Source: Halobellus clavatus (lineage in GTDB: Archaea; Halobacteriota; Halobacteria; Halobacteriales; Haloferacaceae). From it: DNA of 64,000 bases. This document shows, piece by piece, positions 5,768 through 19,819 of this stretch. How positions within the stretch are numbered: the stretch's first letter is position 1; the number at the start of each line of letters is the position of its first letter. The stretch spans positions 248,001-312,000 of the forward strand of contig NZ_FNPB01000001.1 in assembly GCF_900107195.1 (NCBI RefSeq). The letters run 5' to 3'. The translations under genes and the position numbers were made by a program. The notes beneath the pieces are model-generated. The model had not been told where the DNA came from. It saw only the letters and a program-made list of their open reading frames with translations, and did no database searches.

Positions 5768-7788
5768 ACCAACCCCATCCCGGTGAAGACGACGTGACAG
5801 AGCGCGACCAGACAGCCCGAGTGGAGCAGCGCTTCGTAGCGCCCCCGGCTGGCGACGCCCGCGAACCAGCCGGCGGCGATCATCGTCGCTTGCGTGGTCA
5901 CGTAGAGGCGGAACTGATCGCGAGCGAGGTCGACCGCGGCGGGGTCGACCGCGAGCCCGGAGAGCGCTGACATCGTCGACAACCGATCGAAGCCCGTGAA
6001 GACGGTGACGCCCGTGGCGACGCTGATCCCCACGATCAGGAGCGCGGTCGTCCAGCCGACGGCCACGTACACGAGCATCGCGGCGCGGAGGGCACGCTTC
6101 TCGTGATAGAGCCGGCCGACTTCGCCCTGTAGGGTCTCGAAGACGACGCCCGTGTCGCTGCCGGCGTCGAGTGCGCCGATCACCAGGCCGACCGTCTGCT
6201 CGGCCATCGGCGTGCCGACCCGGTCGACGAACCGGTCGAGCGCGGCTGTCCGCAGGTCCGTCTCGGCAGCGTCGAGCGGCGTCGTGAGTCGGAGGTTCAT
6301 CGCGAGATCGGCGACGTCGCCGTTCAGCGGCCCGAGGTCGACGTCGCGGGCGACGTGTTCGACCGCCTCCGAGAACGGGCGGCCGAGCGACACGTGCCCC
6401 GAGACGGCGTGCACGAAGTCCTTGAGTTCGTGGTCCTTGCCGTCGTCGAGCCGCGATCGCCGGACAGCGACGAGTCCGACCGGGATGGCGAAGCCGACGT
6501 ATCCGACCAGTAGCGAGACGATGACGCCGACGCCGAGCAACAGCGAGGCGACGCACGCCGCGATCCCGATCGGTGCGAAGGCGACAGTCGCACTCGCTGG
6601 ATTCCTCGTCGCCGAGCGAAGCGCCTCGATCGCCCCCGCTGGCTGTGGATAGTCGACGCTCTGGTCAGGTGGCCTGAGCCGCGTGACGAGCACGGCGGTT
6701 CCGGCGCCGACGAGTAACACGAACGCGGCGCTCCCGTAGACCGCCAGGGCCCGAAGCGAGACCGCTCCGAGCGGCGTCTCGACGGTCGCCGCGAGGGCTG
6801 GCGAGACGATGCTCATCACGGTGAGTACGATCACGAGGAGCGCCGGGAGAACGAGGAGGACGACGAACAGTTCCGCGAGGAGTTCCAGAAACCCCTGCGC
6901 TTGACTGCGGTCCCGATCCTGCTGGTGGCGGAGCATCCGACTCTCCATCGCCAGGTACTCTGCGAGTGCGTCGGGGCCTTGATCGGCGTGCTCGCGGAAC
7001 TTCAGGAGAAACGGCGCGAGCGTGTCCTGAGCCGGGGTGTCCCGGGCGATTCGCCGGAGCCCCTCGTCGACGTTGCCCGTCATCGCCGCGGTGTTGAGCG
7101 CCTGCCGAAGCGCGACGGCCGTTTCGCCGTACGCGTCGGTGGCGGCGACCCGTCCGAGCATCGCCCGCCGGCCGTCGCTGCCCGAGGCGAGAACGTTCAG
7201 ATATCGAACCGCGCTGGGGAGCGTCCGCGTGATGTCGGCGCGGCGGGCGGCCGCGAGCCACCGGAGGTACCGGCCGCCGGTGTAGACGACGGCGAGATGG
7301 ACGCCCCCGGCGGTGAGGAGTCCGGCGGCGCCCGCAAGCACCAGCGGCGTCCGGCTCGTGGCCTGAATCGCCCCGGGGAGCGCGGTCGCCAGTCCGCCGT
7401 TGCCGATGCGGCTCAGACGGGTCAGTAGTGCGGTGCCGGTCGATTCGATCGCGGCCGGCGAGAGCGCGAGCACGGTCGCGGCGGCGGCTCCAGCGAGTCC
7501 AATCCCGAGGAGCCACGAGAGGGCGTAGACGCGTGCGAGGTACACGTCGAACGCCACGGTCAGGTTGGTCCCGCGATACGCGCGTCGGTCGCGCTCGTGG
7601 CGTCGCGTGTCGGCCCGGCCAGCGAAGAGCGCGTACGCCGCGCGGTCGAACGCGCCGAGAGACGCGTCGCGGGCGACGCCCGCACCGCGCGGACGGTCGT
7701 CGTCGCTCGTGGTCGCCGCGGTCTGCAGGCCGGTGTCGTCGTCCGCACCGGTCCCGTCTGACCGGGCGTCTGCGACCCGTCCGATCAC
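5764..7788 (-). CDS. pilC: PilC/TadC-type membrane platform protein of an archaeal type IV pilus system
   Basis: This 674-residue protein has the GspF/TadC layout in duplicate. Two long hydrophobic helices are followed by a cytoplasmic T2SF domain (about residues 170-280, containing GNVDEGLRRIARDTP) and more helices. A second T2SF domain (about 450-560, FVHAVSGHVSLGRPFSEA) and final helices complete it. It would anchor pilins in the membrane and couple them to the ATPase encoded just upstream. The GTG start at 7788 overlaps the ATPase stop by 4 bases. Haloarchaeal genomes carry several pilB-pilC pairs, so the number of this paralogue cannot be given. Confidence 0.92.
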   Translation of the reverse strand: MIGRVADARSDGTGADDDTGLQTAATTSDDDRPRGAGVARDASLGAFDRAAYALFAGRADTRRHERDRRAYRGTNLTVAFDVYLARVYALSWLLGIGLAGAAAATVLALSPAAIESTGTALLTRLSRIGNGGLATALPGAIQATSRTPLVLAGAAGLLTAGGVHLAVVYTGGRYLRWLAAARRADITRTLPSAVRYLNVLASGSDGRRAMLGRVAATDAYGETAVALRQALNTAAMTGNVDEGLRRIARDTPAQDTLAPFLLKFREHADQGPDALAEYLAMESRMLRHQQDRDRSQAQGFLELLAELFVVLLVLPALLVIVLTVMSIVSPALAATVETPLGAVSLRALAVYGSAAFVLLVGAGTAVLVTRLRPPDQSVDYPQPAGAIEALRSATRNPASATVAFAPIGIAACVASLLLGVGVIVSLLVGYVGFAIPVGLVAVRRSRLDDGKDHELKDFVHAVSGHVSLGRPFSEAVEHVARDVDLGPLNGDVADLAMNLRLTTPLDAAETDLRTAALDRFVDRVGTPMAEQTVGLVIGALDAGSDTGVVFETLQGEVGRLYHEKRALRAAMLVYVAVGWTTALLIVGISVATGVTVFTGFDRLSTMSALSGLAVDPAAVDLARDQFRLYVTTQATMIAAGWFAGVASRGRYEALLHSGCLVALCHVVFTGMGLV

Positions 7789-10136
7789 GGCCCGTCCCCG
7801 CGGCGGTCGGCGGCGGCGTCCACCGTACGAGCGGGGTCGGCGTCGCCGTCAGTCCTGGATCCGCTCACGCCGTCTGATTCGTGCGCCCGCTGTCGCCGGA
7901 CGCGCTCGACGGTCGCGGCCTCGTCGGTCCGCAGGTCCGAGAGGAAGCCGAACAGGTCGTCGACGTCGGTCACGCGCTCTCGCCGGAGGTACTCGACGTA
8001 CCCCTGTTTGCGCCGGAACTCGCGTTCGACGTCCGCGACGTCGCGGTCGGTCGCGGCGGCGAGTCGGTGAAAGAGCCTGAGGGCGCGACGGTGGGTCTCC
8101 CCGTCGGTCGCGGCATCGTCGCCGCCGAGCGTGGGGTGGTCGTAGGCCATCCCGAACGAGCCGTCGGTCTCGCGCCACAGCAGCGTGTTGTAGTGCAGCG
8201 TGATCCCGTCCTTCTCGACGACCCCCGTCCGCGCTGACGCCGGCAGCGATTCGGCCGCGTCGGCGGAGAGCAGTTCGACCACCGAGCCGACGTAGCGCTC
8301 GCCGTCGACCCGCCGGGGGAAGACGACGACGTCGAGTTCGCGGAGGAGATAGCCCGGGAGCCCCTGTTCGATCACCCGGTTGACGAGCGTCTCGATGTCT
8401 TCGGCGTGAGTCGTACCGACGACGCCGTGCCCCGTGTTCAACACTTCAGCGAACGTCTCGAACGATTCCGGGGTGTTGACTTCGGCGATGACCTCGACGT
8501 CGGGGTTGAGGTAGTTGGCTTCGGTCATCAGGTCGGCCATCGAGACGCGTTTGTACGCGTTCTCGTGGTCGCGCGTGGTCAGCGAGACGCCGGTCTCGTG
8601 CGGGAGATACACCTCGCGGGAGCCTTCGTCGATGCTGATCGGACGGTGATCGTACGGGATAAAGGGCATATGGGCGTTCATCAGAGTAGTCTTGCCCGCG
8701 CCCGTCGGCCCCGAGAAGAGCACGACCCGGTGGTGCTCATAGCAGAGCCACAGGAGCGTCACCAGTTCGGTCGGAATCGAGCCGAAGCCGACGAGTTCGA
8801 TCGGCGTTAGCGGCGACGCCGCCTGCTTCCGGATCGAGACGTGGGGGCCGTCCTCGGAGATGACCGGGAGCGCGACGGCACAGCGGATCGTCTCGCCGTG
8901 CCCCGTCGCGTCGGGCGCGACGCCGGCGGGGCGGAGGTTCACCTTCGCCGATGGCTGACTCGCGCTGAGTTCGACCCCGTCGGCGGCGGCCAACTGGGTG
9001 ACTACGTTGACGAACGTGTTCTCGTCCTCGAACGAGAGGTTGGTGGGCACGCGCTCGCCGGCGCGGACGACGTCCGCGCGCGGGACGACCTTCACCCGCT
9101 CGCCGACGCGGTTGGCCTCGACGTCCTCGAGGTGCGGATCGCGGATCGGGATGGTGAGGACGCCCTCGCCGACGTAGTCGCGTAGGACGTAGTAGACCAG
9201 GTCGTCGAGGCGGTCCTGAGCGTACCGGCGGTCGACGGGCGGGACCCCGAACCCATACGCGGCGAGGGCGCTCCGGGCGCGGTAACGCGTCGCTGCGAGC
9301 CACGCGCGGGTGTTGCGAGCGGTGAGCCGCCGCGAGAGGAACTGCCGGGCGCGCTCGCGGATGAACGCCGTGCGCTCCTCGACGATTTCCTCGACGTTGG
9401 CCTCCCAGATTCGCTCTTTGCACTCGGCGATCAGTGCCTCGTCGCCCGGAAGTAAATCGGGTTCGAGGACGGCGTACTTCGCCTCGAAGCGATCGTCGCC
9501 GAGGAGCCGGTCGCGGTGGACCACGACCTCGACGTCGAAGCCGGCGAAGGAGACGGTGTAGCGGCGGAGCCGCTGGCCGGCGACGCGGCTGGCGAAGGGC
9601 GCGTCCGCGCGGAAGTCGGTCGCGGCGGGCGCGTAGTCCTCGGTGTGGACGACGAGCGCCCCGTCGGTCTCGCCGTCGAGGTCGACGACGTCGACGCGGT
9701 CGTCGAGCGCGATGGGCGTGAGTGCCCCGAGCAACCGGAGTTCGCAGATTGCGTGGTAGTCGATTCGACGGCGCGCGGCCGGCGACACGTCGAGCAGTCG
9801 GTCCAGCACCCGGCGGTACTTCGGCGGAAGCCCCGCGGCCGCGCGCTCGGCGGTTCCCTGTCGAGTGAGCGGCCGGCGACCCTCCACGCCGGAGAAGTAC
9901 TCGCGGATCTCCTCGAGCGCGCGTTCGGACTCCGCGCGCAGTGACGGTTCCCGGAGGTGGTACGTGAAACCGACGCCGTCGGGGGCGTCACGGATGGTCG
10001 TGACGACGCCGGGGGCGACCTCGTACTGCGATCGGACGTCGCGCGCGTACCACGCGGCGCGACTGCCCGGCGGCTCGGGGGCCGGGACCGTCGGTCTCTC
10101 GGTGCCGGAGGCGACCGAGCTGTCTGCCGGAGTCAT
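7785..10136 (-). CDS. pilB: PilB/GspE-family secretion ATPase, first gene of the pilus operon
   Basis: This 783-residue type II/IV secretion ATPase has a long N-terminal adaptor region and a RecA-like motor. The Walker A motif GPTGAGKTT is near residues 476-484, followed by the Asp-box region ISIDEGSREVYLP, a Walker B-like segment around EVIAEVNTPESF and the His-box segment GHGVVGTTHAED. The enzyme would hydrolyse ATP at the inner membrane face to extrude pilin subunits through PilC. The ATG at 10136 follows a TATA-like element near 10190 and an inverted repeat at 10151-10169. The six downstream genes are all translationally coupled to it. Confidence 0.95.
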   Translation of the reverse strand: MTPADSSVASGTERPTVPAPEPPGSRAAWYARDVRSQYEVAPGVVTTIRDAPDGVGFTYHLREPSLRAESERALEEIREYFSGVEGRRPLTRQGTAERAAAGLPPKYRRVLDRLLDVSPAARRRIDYHAICELRLLGALTPIALDDRVDVVDLDGETDGALVVHTEDYAPAATDFRADAPFASRVAGQRLRRYTVSFAGFDVEVVVHRDRLLGDDRFEAKYAVLEPDLLPGDEALIAECKERIWEANVEEIVEERTAFIRERARQFLSRRLTARNTRAWLAATRYRARSALAAYGFGVPPVDRRYAQDRLDDLVYYVLRDYVGEGVLTIPIRDPHLEDVEANRVGERVKVVPRADVVRAGERVPTNLSFEDENTFVNVVTQLAAADGVELSASQPSAKVNLRPAGVAPDATGHGETIRCAVALPVISEDGPHVSIRKQAASPLTPIELVGFGSIPTELVTLLWLCYEHHRVVLFSGPTGAGKTTLMNAHMPFIPYDHRPISIDEGSREVYLPHETGVSLTTRDHENAYKRVSMADLMTEANYLNPDVEVIAEVNTPESFETFAEVLNTGHGVVGTTHAEDIETLVNRVIEQGLPGYLLRELDVVVFPRRVDGERYVGSVVELLSADAAESLPASARTGVVEKDGITLHYNTLLWRETDGSFGMAYDHPTLGGDDAATDGETHRRALRLFHRLAAATDRDVADVEREFRRKQGYVEYLRRERVTDVDDLFGFLSDLRTDEAATVERVRRQRAHESDGVSGSRTDGDADPARTVDAAADRRGDGP

Positions 10137-10150
10137 TCCCTCACCGCGGC

Positions 10151-10169
10151 AGTATGCCTACAATGCATA
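10151..10169. promoter_or_regulatory. Inverted repeat upstream of the pilus operon
   Basis: The sequence gtatgc-N7-gcatac forms a 6+6 base inverted repeat 15 bases before the pilB start. A TATA-like stretch, tttatata on the minus strand, lies about 30 bases further upstream. The position fits an operator or a 5' leader hairpin. The short arms make it only a suggestion. Confidence 0.3.
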
Positions 10170-10314
10170 CGGCGGATCTTTCGGCATCGTATATAAATTC
10201 ACGCGACACTCATCGGAAGAAAACCGGGCCGGCGTGTGCGGACGAACCGATTGGACCTGTCGGCAACCGTGACTGTCGGTCTGGGGCGCCCGTCGACGTC
10301 GACGGTTCACACGG

Positions 10315-10323
10315 GCTTTATTT
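10315..10323 (+). promoter_or_regulatory. TATA box for the oxidoreductase at 10346
   Basis: The element gctttattt is centred about 27 bases before the ATG at 10346, the spacing of a haloarchaeal leaderless promoter. It selects this ATG over in-frame upstream codons. Confidence 0.6.
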
Positions 10324-10345
10324 CGGTGACTCGAAACTGGGACGT

Positions 10346-11323
10346 ATGCGCTTCGGCATCATCGGAACCGCAGACATCGCGCGAACGGCACTCCTCCCGG
10401 CCCTCCGGGAGACCGAGCACTCCGCGGCTGCCATCGCCTCCAGGGACGAGTCCCGGGCCGTCCAGGTGGCCGAGGAGTTCGGCATCCCGCGGACGTACGG
10501 CTCCTACGAGGAACTGCTGTCTGACCCGGAGATCGACGCGGTCTACAACCCGCTGCCCAACGGACTCCACGCCGAGTGGACGAAGCGCGCGGCCGACGAG
10601 GGCCTCGACGTCCTCTGTGAGAAACCGCTCGCGGCCGACGCGCAGGAGGCAGAATCGGTAGTTCAGTACTGCCGGGACGCGGGCGTGACCCTGATGGAGG
10701 CGTTTATGTACCGGTACCACCCGCGGACCGAGCGCGCCGTCGAACTGGTGCGCGAAGAACTGGACAACGTGCACTCGCTGAACGCCTCGTTCAAATTCCG
10801 GCTCGAAGGCACCCCCGACGACGTCCGCCTCGATCCCGACCTCGCCGGCGGGGCGCTGATGGACGTCGGGTGTTACGCCGTCTCGGCCGCGCGGTTGTTC
10901 CTGGGTGAGCCGGACCGCGTCTACGCGTACCAGAACGACACCCGCGACGCCGGCGTCGACACCACGCTGATGGGGATCCTGGAGTACGAGGACGGACGGA
11001 TGGCGCACGTCGACGGCGCGTTCGACGCACCCGAGGTCCAGCGATGCCGCGTCGAGGGCGAGAACGGCTGGCTGGAGCTTGACCCGGCGTTCAACGTCTC
11101 TACCGACGAACCGGCGGCGCTGGAGTACGAGATCGACGGCCGACACGGTCACGAGCGGTTCGAGCCGCTCGATCAGTACCGTGCCGAGGTCGAGGCGTTC
11201 ATCGACGCTGTCGAGTCGGGGGCGGAACCACGGACCGGCGGTGCGGAGGCGATCGCGAATATGCGCGTCATCGACGCGCTGTACGAGAGCGCGAGCCGCG
11301 GTGAACCAGTCGACGTCGAGTGA
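10346..11323 (+). CDS. Gfo/Idh/MocA-family NAD(P)-dependent oxidoreductase
   Basis: This 325-residue dehydrogenase has an N-terminal Rossmann fold (MRFGIIGTADIA), the family signature LCEKPLAAD near residue 95, a YRYHPRT motif and the C-terminal GGALMDVGCYA segment. Members oxidise or reduce sugars and cyclitols using NAD(P). The substrate is not readable from the sequence, but a sugar is likely because an aldo/keto reductase follows and a sugar ABC importer lies 2 kb away. Start choice rests on the TATA box 27 bases upstream. It differs from the second Gfo/Idh protein in this window (54683-55699), which resembles haloarchaeal xylose dehydrogenase. Confidence 0.9.
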   Translation: MRFGIIGTADIARTALLPALRETEHSAAAIASRDESRAVQVAEEFGIPRTYGSYEELLSDPEIDAVYNPLPNGLHAEWTKRAADEGLDVLCEKPLAADAQEAESVVQYCRDAGVTLMEAFMYRYHPRTERAVELVREELDNVHSLNASFKFRLEGTPDDVRLDPDLAGGALMDVGCYAVSAARLFLGEPDRVYAYQNDTRDAGVDTTLMGILEYEDGRMAHVDGAFDAPEVQRCRVEGENGWLELDPAFNVSTDEPAALEYEIDGRHGHERFEPLDQYRAEVEAFIDAVESGAEPRTGGAEAIANMRVIDALYESASRGEPVDVE

Positions 11324-17851: not shown

Positions 17852-18015
17852 TGTTGTCTTACCACACAGGAGTAATCCCGGCTAATACGGACGGATACCC
17901 GGACCTCCATAGTTTTCACCCCGAGAGTAACGCGGCGTCCCGGGGAGCCGGTCGTCGGTTCTTTATTGTCGATACCCCACCGCTTAGGTAGGACGACTGT
18001 GAGAGCGGACGTACG

Positions 18016-19071
18016 GTGGCGCTGAGAGAACCCGCGGCGAGCGTGGTCGAGTCCGTCGACGACGACCGGGCCGTCACGCTACTGGAATCGATCTACGAGC
18101 ACGACCTCCCTCCGGCAGTGCAGGATCTGGTCTCGGAGTATCAGAACTTCGAAGAAGCGCGATCGACGTTCCTGTGGAAGTGGATACACCACCTCGCGCC
18201 GAAGAACGTGATGCCGTTCGTCGACGAGTCCTACCGCGAGGCCATCGCGGTCGACAACACGATCCTCGTCATCTTCGTGACGGTCCTGGACGATCTGATC
18301 GAGAAGCACCGTGATTTCAGGACGTTCGACGCCATAACGGGCCTCATCCGCCTCAACGGCTGGAACGACAGTGCGGCCCTCGGTCGGTCGCTCGAACTGG
18401 CCGACGGCAGCGGGCGAGGGCCGCCCCGCGTCGACGAACCGTACGCCGCATTCGCCGTGCGTGTCTGGGAGACGCTCCTCGATAGACTGGAGCGCGCCCC
18501 AAAGTTCGACGAGTACGCCCCGCTCTTCCGGTTCGACGTCGGGCAAGTCGTCACGTCGATCGAGTACAGTAGACTGGCCATCGATCGACCGGAGCTGGCG
18601 ACCGTCGACGACCTCGGCCGGTATGAGTCCCACAATATGGGGATGCACAGTTTCCTCGATATCGATCTCATGCACACCGCTCCCGAGTACCGGAATCATC
18701 TCTCAGTCTTGCGGGAGGCTGTCGAAATCGCCCAACAGATGGCCCGGATCGGCAACTGGCTCAGCACCTGGGAACGGGAGGTCTACGAGGGCGACGTGAG
18801 CTCGGGCGTCGTCGTCTCGGCGGTCGAGCGTGACATCGTCGGCGTCGAGGAGCTCCCCGACCCGGCGGACCCGGACCCCGAGACGGCGAGCGAGGTGATC
18901 GAGCGGATCAACGAGCACGACCTCGAAACCGAGTTCCTCTCGCGATGGAACGACAAGTACCGCCGGCTCGTCGCACTCGACCGTACCGTCGACGAGATCG
19001 ACATCGGCCCGTTCATCGACGGCACCGAGGAAGTCCTCCGATACCACCTCGCGAGTCAGTGGTTCAATTAG
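18016..19071 (+). CDS. Putative class I terpene synthase-like protein
   Basis: This 351-residue, largely helical protein has no obvious name but carries the landmarks of class I terpene cyclases at the right spacing. It has an aspartate-rich DDLIE (Asp92-Asp93-x-x-Glu96), a candidate diphosphate-sensor Arg202, an NSE-type triad in NWLSTWERE (Asn247, Thr251, Glu255) and a C-terminal Arg342-Tyr343 pair. Arg202 precedes Asn247 by 45 residues; known bacterial cyclases have about 46. If correct, it would bind a prenyl diphosphate through Mg2+. The GTG start at 18016 is the only sensible one. It diverges from the sugar importer, and its 3' end overlaps the convergent gene by 8 bases. Function remains inference. 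Confidence 0.6.
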   Translation: MALREPAASVVESVDDDRAVTLLESIYEHDLPPAVQDLVSEYQNFEEARSTFLWKWIHHLAPKNVMPFVDESYREAIAVDNTILVIFVTVLDDLIEKHRDFRTFDAITGLIRLNGWNDSAALGRSLELADGSGRGPPRVDEPYAAFAVRVWETLLDRLERAPKFDEYAPLFRFDVGQVVTSIEYSRLAIDRPELATVDDLGRYESHNMGMHSFLDIDLMHTAPEYRNHLSVLREAVEIAQQMARIGNWLSTWEREVYEGDVSSGVVVSAVERDIVGVEELPDPADPDPETASEVIERINEHDLETEFLSRWNDKYRRLVALDRTVDEIDIGPFIDGTEEVLRYHLASQWFN

Positions 19072-19819
19072 CGCTCGACGGACGATCGCCGCCGAAGCGC
19101 TCGCGCTCGCGGCGGCATACGCGCACCCAGAGCGCGAGCAGGGAACTGTCGAGTCCGTACCGCGCGTCGGTGTCTCGCACCCACTCGTCGTCGGTGAAGA
19201 GCAGGTACTGAAACCGCCTGACCGTCGGGTCGAGATCCTCCAGCGCGAGGTCGCCGACGTAGTAGCCGACCGTCTGAGAGCGGGTCTCGGCGATCAACTC
19301 CGGCGGGACGCCGATGCCGCACTCGCCGGCGACGTAGTCGAACCACTCCAGGTGGAGGATCGCGTCCGCGAAGGCGAACCGATCGGCGAAGCCGGACACC
19401 GACTCGATGGCGGGACGACCGTGGGAGATGACGTCCTTCGGCCGACTGAACCGCGGGACTGAGAGGTGATCGATCGTTCGCGCGTACTGGTCAGCGACGC
19501 GCCTGAGCCGCCAGTCAGCGTAGGCGACCGGGGCGGTCAGCGGGAGTTCGTACCAGACGGGCGTCCACTCCAAAAACGGCAGGCCGAAGGCGGCGTCGGC
19601 ATAGAGGTCTGCGGCGACGAGTCGGTTCACCGCCGGCGCGACGTCTTCGCCGGTCCGACCGGCGCGCATCGCGGTCTCGGCCTCGTCGATGAACCCGGCG
19701 AGATCGCCGGTGTGGAACCCCATCCCGTCGGCGACCCGCAGGAGGTACTCGCCCCCGGGTCGGAACCAGTCGGCGAAATCCGCAGGCGTCCGCGCACGTA
19801 GTAATGAGAAGACGCTCAC
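19064..19819 (-). CDS. Conserved haloarchaeal protein of unknown function
   Basis: The protein has about 251 residues from the GTG at 19819. That start is chosen because a TATA box (19843-19850) lies 27 bases upstream; an ATG at 19906 would lie upstream of that TATA box. The sequence is rich in aromatic residues and Arg/Asp, has no signal peptide or membrane helix and shows no motif that I recognise. A cluster LEWTPVWYELPLTAPVAYADW and two short acidic runs stand out. It converges on the terpene-synthase-like gene with an 8-base overlap. A short direct-repeat array precedes its promoter. Function unknown. Confidence 0.65.
   Translation of the reverse strand: MSVFSLLRARTPADFADWFRPGGEYLLRVADGMGFHTGDLAGFIDEAETAMRAGRTGEDVAPAVNRLVAADLYADAAFGLPFLEWTPVWYELPLTAPVAYADWRLRRVADQYARTIDHLSVPRFSRPKDVISHGRPAIESVSGFADRFAFADAILHLEWFDYVAGECGIGVPPELIAETRSQTVGYYVGDLALEDLDPTVRRFQYLLFTDDEWVRDTDARYGLDSSLLALWVRVCRRERERFGGDRPSSAN

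Follow-up and report, generated by a model that had tools for sequence, protein, structure and literature searches.

The question raised by this locus is whether a gene in a haloarchaeal genome encodes a class I terpene synthase and, if so, how widely such genes are shared among archaea and what they might be for. Plants, fungi, and bacteria are well-known sources of class I terpene synthases, and archaeal membranes are built from isoprenoids; to our knowledge, archaea have long been thought to have hardly any enzymes of this class. The gene lies on the forward strand of a 64,000-nucleotide stretch of the Halobellus clavatus genome, and this whole stretch is referred to here as the window. An earlier note on this DNA had read the product as a class I terpene synthase, a reading that is largely supported by an all-alpha structural model, fold matches to terpene cyclases, and conserved metal-binding residues. 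We consider it likely that the product is a class I terpene synthase belonging to a family widespread in archaea.

The gene and its landmarks

The open reading frame at 18016..19071 (+) encodes a class I terpene synthase-like protein of 351 aa from a GTG start, and its translation contains no internal stop. Comparison of the window gene with its orthologues in the same genus gave dN/dS values of 0.26-0.46; this open reading frame is a real gene on which purifying selection acts. When the sequences upstream of nine genes from the same genus were aligned, most shared a promoter-like element, TACCCCACCGCTTAGGTA (TACC-N10-GGTA; 17973..17990, +), whose 3' end lies 25 nt upstream of the GTG. Its location is as expected for the basal promoter of a leaderless transcript and supports the GTG as the start. 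We infer a promoter role from the position of the element, which could be either a promoter or a regulator site.

The protein carries four landmarks, all of which are found where the earlier note had placed them: the putative metal-binding Asp-rich motif DDLIE (codons 92-96; 18289..18303, +), an Arg at the diphosphate-sensor position (codon 202; 18619..18621, +), the putative metal-binding NSE-type motif NWLSTWERE (codons 247-255; 18754..18780, +), and an Arg-Tyr (RY) pair near the C-terminus (codons 342-343; 19039..19044, +). The spacing of 45 residues between the sensor Arg and the NSE motif is likewise confirmed. In the bacterial type of enzyme, this Arg precedes the NSE motif by about 46 residues and the RY pair follows it by about 80-90. 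The NSE consensus, (N,D)D(L,I,V)x(S,T)xx(K,R)(E,D), is matched throughout except at position 2, which is Trp rather than Asp. When the protein's own residues were shuffled 20,000 times, all four landmarks arose together in 0.05% of the shuffles, and the DDxx[DE] and [ND]x3[ST]x3[ED] pair arose at similar spacing in 3.7%, so that the Asp-rich and NSE motifs alone are not strong evidence. The landmark pattern is more prone to arise by chance than it appears, and the case therefore rests on the relatives of the protein and on its structure.

Predicted fold and profile matches

The AlphaFold2 model, built from a 42-sequence alignment of the family, is all-alpha, with a pLDDT of 90.9 and a pTM of 0.90. 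Helix 71-96 has DDLIE at its C-terminal end, R202 closes a short helix, 197-202, after which the helix breaks, and the NSE motif lies on helix 223-257; class I terpene synthases carry their Asp-rich, sensor Arg, and NSE motifs at such helix positions. A Foldseek search with this model returned 26 PDB matches at E<=0.001, all of them class I isoprenoid synthases. Terpene cyclases from bacteria or fungi account for nearly all of these, the exceptions being two chains of an archaeal isoprenoid synthase. The matches have a probability of 1.00 and TM scores of up to 0.64 normalized by target and a moderate 0.37-0.59 normalized by query. The prenyl synthase fold that the earlier note had expected is not contradicted by these results. 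A model of the Methanosarcina member, which has 17% identity to the window protein, is also all-helical (pLDDT 90.3); it has no PDB match at E<=0.001, the best being at 1.7e-3, and terpene cyclases are mixed with isoprenoid synthases among its matches.

Among sequence profiles, Pfam PF19086 (Terpene_syn_C_2) matches residues 85-273 of the window protein weakly, at E 0.0028, with 17.9 bits falling below the gathering score of 23.7, and 36 of the 42 family members match it at E<0.1 (best E 9.4e-7). Scanned over the window's own genome and 14 control genomes, the same profile matched nothing anywhere; since it is silent even in the genome that carries the gene, this search cannot show absence elsewhere. 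The sole PDB match in phmmer was the terpene synthase Sat1646, at E 0.041 and via the NSE region, and the family profile matched no PDB chain at E<0.5, which leaves the fold search as the basis of the structural evidence. Two other identities were tried and rejected: isoprenyl diphosphate synthase, as PF00348 (polyprenyl_synt) has no match to the window protein even at E<10 and an NSE motif stands in place of the second DDxxD, and squalene/phytoene synthase, as PF00494 (SQS_PSY) has no match at the same threshold.

Residue conservation

Conservation was assessed in the 42-sequence alignment and in a wider set of 87 relatives. D92, D93, N247, T251, and E255 are invariant columns in the former, where few stretches are as well conserved as the NSE helix. 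Among the 87 relatives, position 92 is Asp in 81 and Asn in 4, D93 is kept in 86, position 96 is Glu or Asp in 84, and N247, T251, and E255 are kept in 86 each, while R254 is found in 83, with Lys in another 3. Further residues are also constant, as D217 (18664..18666, +) and W252 are present in 87/87 and the N-terminal R49 and W56 (codons 49-56; 18160..18183, +) in 85/85 of the relatives covering those positions. One divergent, long-branch clade (L093, L095, L096, and L098) has NDLSD in place of DDxxE and an intact NSE motif.

The remaining landmarks behave differently. Position 202 is Arg in 30/87 relatives and in 11/12 of the window's own clade, a set of 12 sequences made up of nine from the window's genus and L059-L061; ten tree representatives of this clade group with support of 100/99. 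For the C-terminal pair, R342 is Arg in 22/87 relatives and Y343 is Tyr in 49/87, with RY in 12/12 of the clade. The earlier note had named D92, D93, R202, N247, and E255 as the positions that homologues should conserve: D92, D93, N247, and E255 proved near-universal, but R202, like the RY pair, is conserved only in the window's clade. Judged from these alignments, the four landmarks are real for the window's clade, and only two, the Asp-rich and NSE motifs, define the family. The loss of the sensor Arg and RY in most members raises the question of how these enzymes close and fire. Judged by conservation, H206/N207 and R49 are candidates for taking the place of the sensor Arg where R202 is missing.

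Distribution of the family

Relatives at E<=0.001 were found in 120 of 391 Halobacteria genomes, representing 39 of 86 genera, and a scan of the phylum with the family alignment added members in families f13, f29, and f15, of which we take the distant f13 relatives to include Methanosarcina. Named records with relatives include Halobellus, Halorubrum, Geoglobus, and Thermoplasmatota, and in the phylum of the Thermoplasmatota metagenome-assembled genome (MAG), 5/293 genomes have one. Plasmid-borne members occur in Halorussus, Halobaculum, Halobellus, Natrinema, and Salinigranum, and an identical protein is shared by Halobellus inordinatus (L031) and G095, a genome of the window's genus. Viral contigs yielded 16 pattern matches, none of them a relative. 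By these sequence searches, the family of the window protein is broad and archaeal and is not a rarity. It is unannotated in the records examined, with "hypothetical protein" given in 6/6 plasmid records.

In a tree of archaeal members rooted on Methanosarcina by choice, the haloarchaeal sequences form one group (100/99), followed by a methanogen group and then Thermoplasmatota, and Methanosarcina lies on a long branch far from the other members. Several genomes have two or three paralogues. The haloarchaeon G263 carries tandem synthase genes with the metal-binding motifs intact in both (L107, about 8300-10700), and in G831, which came from the Thermoplasmatota search, two synthase genes are separated by about 5 kb, with a radical SAM-like gene in the interval (L165, 5851-8138 and 12378-13337). 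In the Geoglobus-type genome G593, the synthase genes (L155 and L156) are split into several frames, reflecting either decay or assembly errors. The presence of the family in about a third of the sampled haloarchaeal genomes, as well as in methanogens, would make archaeal terpenoid chemistry open to direct test.

The window locus

In the window, the gene is transcribed away from an ABC sugar transporter operon on one side and towards the gene for a 251-aa protein on the other, beyond which come MinD-like and cobyric acid synthase genes. The 251-aa protein (19064-19819, -) has no Pfam match. Its gene adjoins the synthase gene in all nine synthase-carrying genomes of the genus and is present in one of the four genomes of the genus that lack the synthase. 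The place upstream of the synthase gene is taken in seven further genomes of the genus by a TadA-like ATPase gene, a name taken from sequence reading, and in G048, of the same genus, the ATPase and 251-aa protein genes are about 190 bp apart with no synthase between them. This empty site indicates that the synthase is an accessory gene, present or absent at one site. The empty site is recorded at L170 (about 5898-6090), where the TadA-like ATPase gene adjoins the 251-aa protein gene in a genome of the window's genus.

The window copy has neither a co-transcribed isoprenoid gene nor an isoprenoid-linked operon partner at its locus, and no sensor, regulator, or P450/FAD monooxygenase gene at its side. 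The claim that it does not lie beside carotenoid or squalene genes also holds, as none was identified among the five genes on each side. The genome's two polyprenyl synthase genes and its four P450 genes all map to other contigs.

Sensor genes adjoining the relatives

Across the wider family, genes directly adjoining the synthase encode PAS domains at 19 of 87 loci compared with 3 of 68 one gene further out (Fisher p 0.002). Five genomes that were checked contain 30-93 PAS_9 matches each, several often falling in one gene; set against a background of 2% of genes, 19/87 has a binomial probability near 1e-14, with the loci not being independent of one another. After clustering at <45% identity, a sensor, in the form of a PAS kinase, a PAS-GAF-BAT-HTH_10 regulator, or a FIST protein, is a direct neighbour in 9/22 clusters. 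In the Methanosarcina-type loci, a PAS histidine kinase gene lies directly upstream on the same strand in 6/6 of those reaching that far, the Pfam domains having been confirmed for two of these kinases. At L141, taken to be from Methanosarcina acetivorans, the synthase gene starts with a GTG at 8887 on the minus strand and has a PAS kinase gene upstream. The next gene downstream of the synthase is a PAS kinase gene in L148/L149 and also in L046, the Thermoplasmatota MAG; four haloarchaea have a PAS kinase gene downstream, and a BAT-HTH_10 regulator gene is divergent from the synthase in Halorubrum and others. A FIST-domain gene overlaps the synthase gene or lies 8 bp upstream of it in L044 and L165, the 8-bp gap being that between the FIST-domain gene and the first synthase gene of L165. 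P450 genes are found two genes away at three loci, and an FAD monooxygenase gene at two.

No title or abstract found in the literature describes this family or its sensor neighbours, and the sensor-gene adjacency of the family is new here. Its repeated occurrence suggests a link to signalling or to regulated stress metabolism, and the family may thus point to a little-known archaeal chemistry and perhaps to chemical signalling. One doubtful, although conceivable, extension is that terpenoids made by the family act as signals or cues for the PAS, GAF-BAT, or FIST proteins encoded next to it, that Methanosarcina, Thermoplasmatota, and haloarchaea share this module, and that the sensor for the window copy would be encoded elsewhere in its genome. 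If true, a terpene-based sensing module would be common to very different archaea.

Alternative explanations and proposed reaction

Several other explanations could account for parts of these data. A chance resemblance, whether in a long GC-rich open reading frame or in an unrelated helical protein, might be entertained on the grounds that high-GC DNA contains many long spurious reading frames and that the shuffles reproduce the Asp-rich/NSE pair as often as they do, but we give it practically no credence: orthologues in dozens of genera, the dN/dS values, and residue conservation rule out a chance open reading frame, and together with the confident all-alpha model that matches terpene cyclases and the invariance of precisely the metal-binding residues, they refute a chance resemblance of either kind. 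It is also improbable that the protein uses a class I fold to ionise or hydrolyse prenyl diphosphates with no cyclisation step, or to pass the prenyl group on to an acceptor, as in a linear terpene alcohol synthase or a head-to-middle prenyltransferase. The metal-binding site is intact while most relatives lack the sensor Arg and RY, and isoprenoid diphosphate synthases are also among the Foldseek matches, both of which such an activity would accommodate; however, the second motif is of the NSE type (NxxxTxxxE, with Arg or Lys before the Glu) rather than a chain-elongating second DDxxD, neither polyprenyl_synt nor SQS_PSY matches, and cyclases are the best fold matches.

A third idea, that a terpene synthase-derived protein has given up catalysis and serves as a sensor or regulator responding to prenyl diphosphates, would explain the frequent sensor and regulator neighbours, among which are PAS, BAT-HTH_10, FIST, and FilR1-type genes. 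It predicts drift at the metal ligands, whereas these are kept in 81-86 of the 87 relatives and the NSE helix is highly conserved, and we regard it as a very remote prospect.

A catalytically active class I terpene synthase is thus the favoured explanation. From the gene, its fold, and its conserved metal ligands, all supported computationally, we infer metal binding, ionisation, substrate, cyclisation, and product as follows. DDLIE and N247/T251/E255 would bind a Mg2+ cluster, the ions of which would grip the diphosphate of a linear prenyl diphosphate. As the common building block in archaea, geranylgeranyl diphosphate (GGPP) is the likeliest substrate, with farnesyl diphosphate (FPP) being possible. 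In the window's clade, the C-terminal RY pair probably assists, together with R202 and R254. The diphosphate would be ionised off and the resulting carbocation folded, usually cyclised, and quenched, and the predicted product is a hydrophobic terpene hydrocarbon or alcohol. Given the adjacency of sensor or regulator genes in many relatives and of P450/FAD monooxygenase genes nearby in a few, this product is probably not a core lipid but a specialised metabolite under regulation.

Comparison with known systems

The earlier note's remark that such cyclases are hardly known in archaea needs correction in light of the broad family found here and of PMC12797696 and PMC13235557, by which archaeal terpene synthases are not altogether unknown. 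Samusevich et al. address terpenoid biosynthesis in archaea in a 2024-25 preprint (bioRxiv 10.1101/2024.01.29.577750), which both papers cite and which reportedly claims working archaeal enzymes of this kind, and PMC13235557 mentions previously characterised archaeal terpene synthases. By title and citation alone, the likeness of the enzymes of Samusevich et al. to the present family lies in archaeal terpenoid biosynthesis.

The closest likeness of known structure is to the bacterial class I terpene synthases (PF19086), with which the archaeal family shares the all-alpha fold, DDxxE, and an NSE motif with its Thr and Arg-Glu, and the window's clade shares the sensor-position Arg and C-terminal RY as well. 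Solved relatives of this bacterial type include Sat1646 (7e4n), 1-epi-cubenol synthase (9hqa), T-muurolol synthase (9hqd), and LrdC (6oh6). The differences are substantial: identity in the structural matches is about 12-19%, the window protein falls below the Pfam cutoff, Trp occupies NSE position 2, which is usually Asp in the bacterial enzymes, most archaeal members lack the sensor Arg and RY, and the archaeal family has near-invariant residues of its own (R49, W56, D217, W252, and D260). The trans-isoprenyl diphosphate synthases (PF00348), some of which appear in the Foldseek lists, have the same overall fold; they have two DDxxD-type motifs, whereas the archaeal family has one Asp-rich motif and an NSE motif, and the window protein lacks a PF00348 match.

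A further likeness concerns regulation. In Halobacterium, bop, brp, and a gene for phytoene synthase are induced by the bacterio-opsin activator Bat. Although the window's own copy has no Bat-type regulator adjoining it, Bat-like PAS-GAF-BAT-HTH_10 regulators, putative paralogues of Halobacterium Bat, adjoin the family genes in several haloarchaea.
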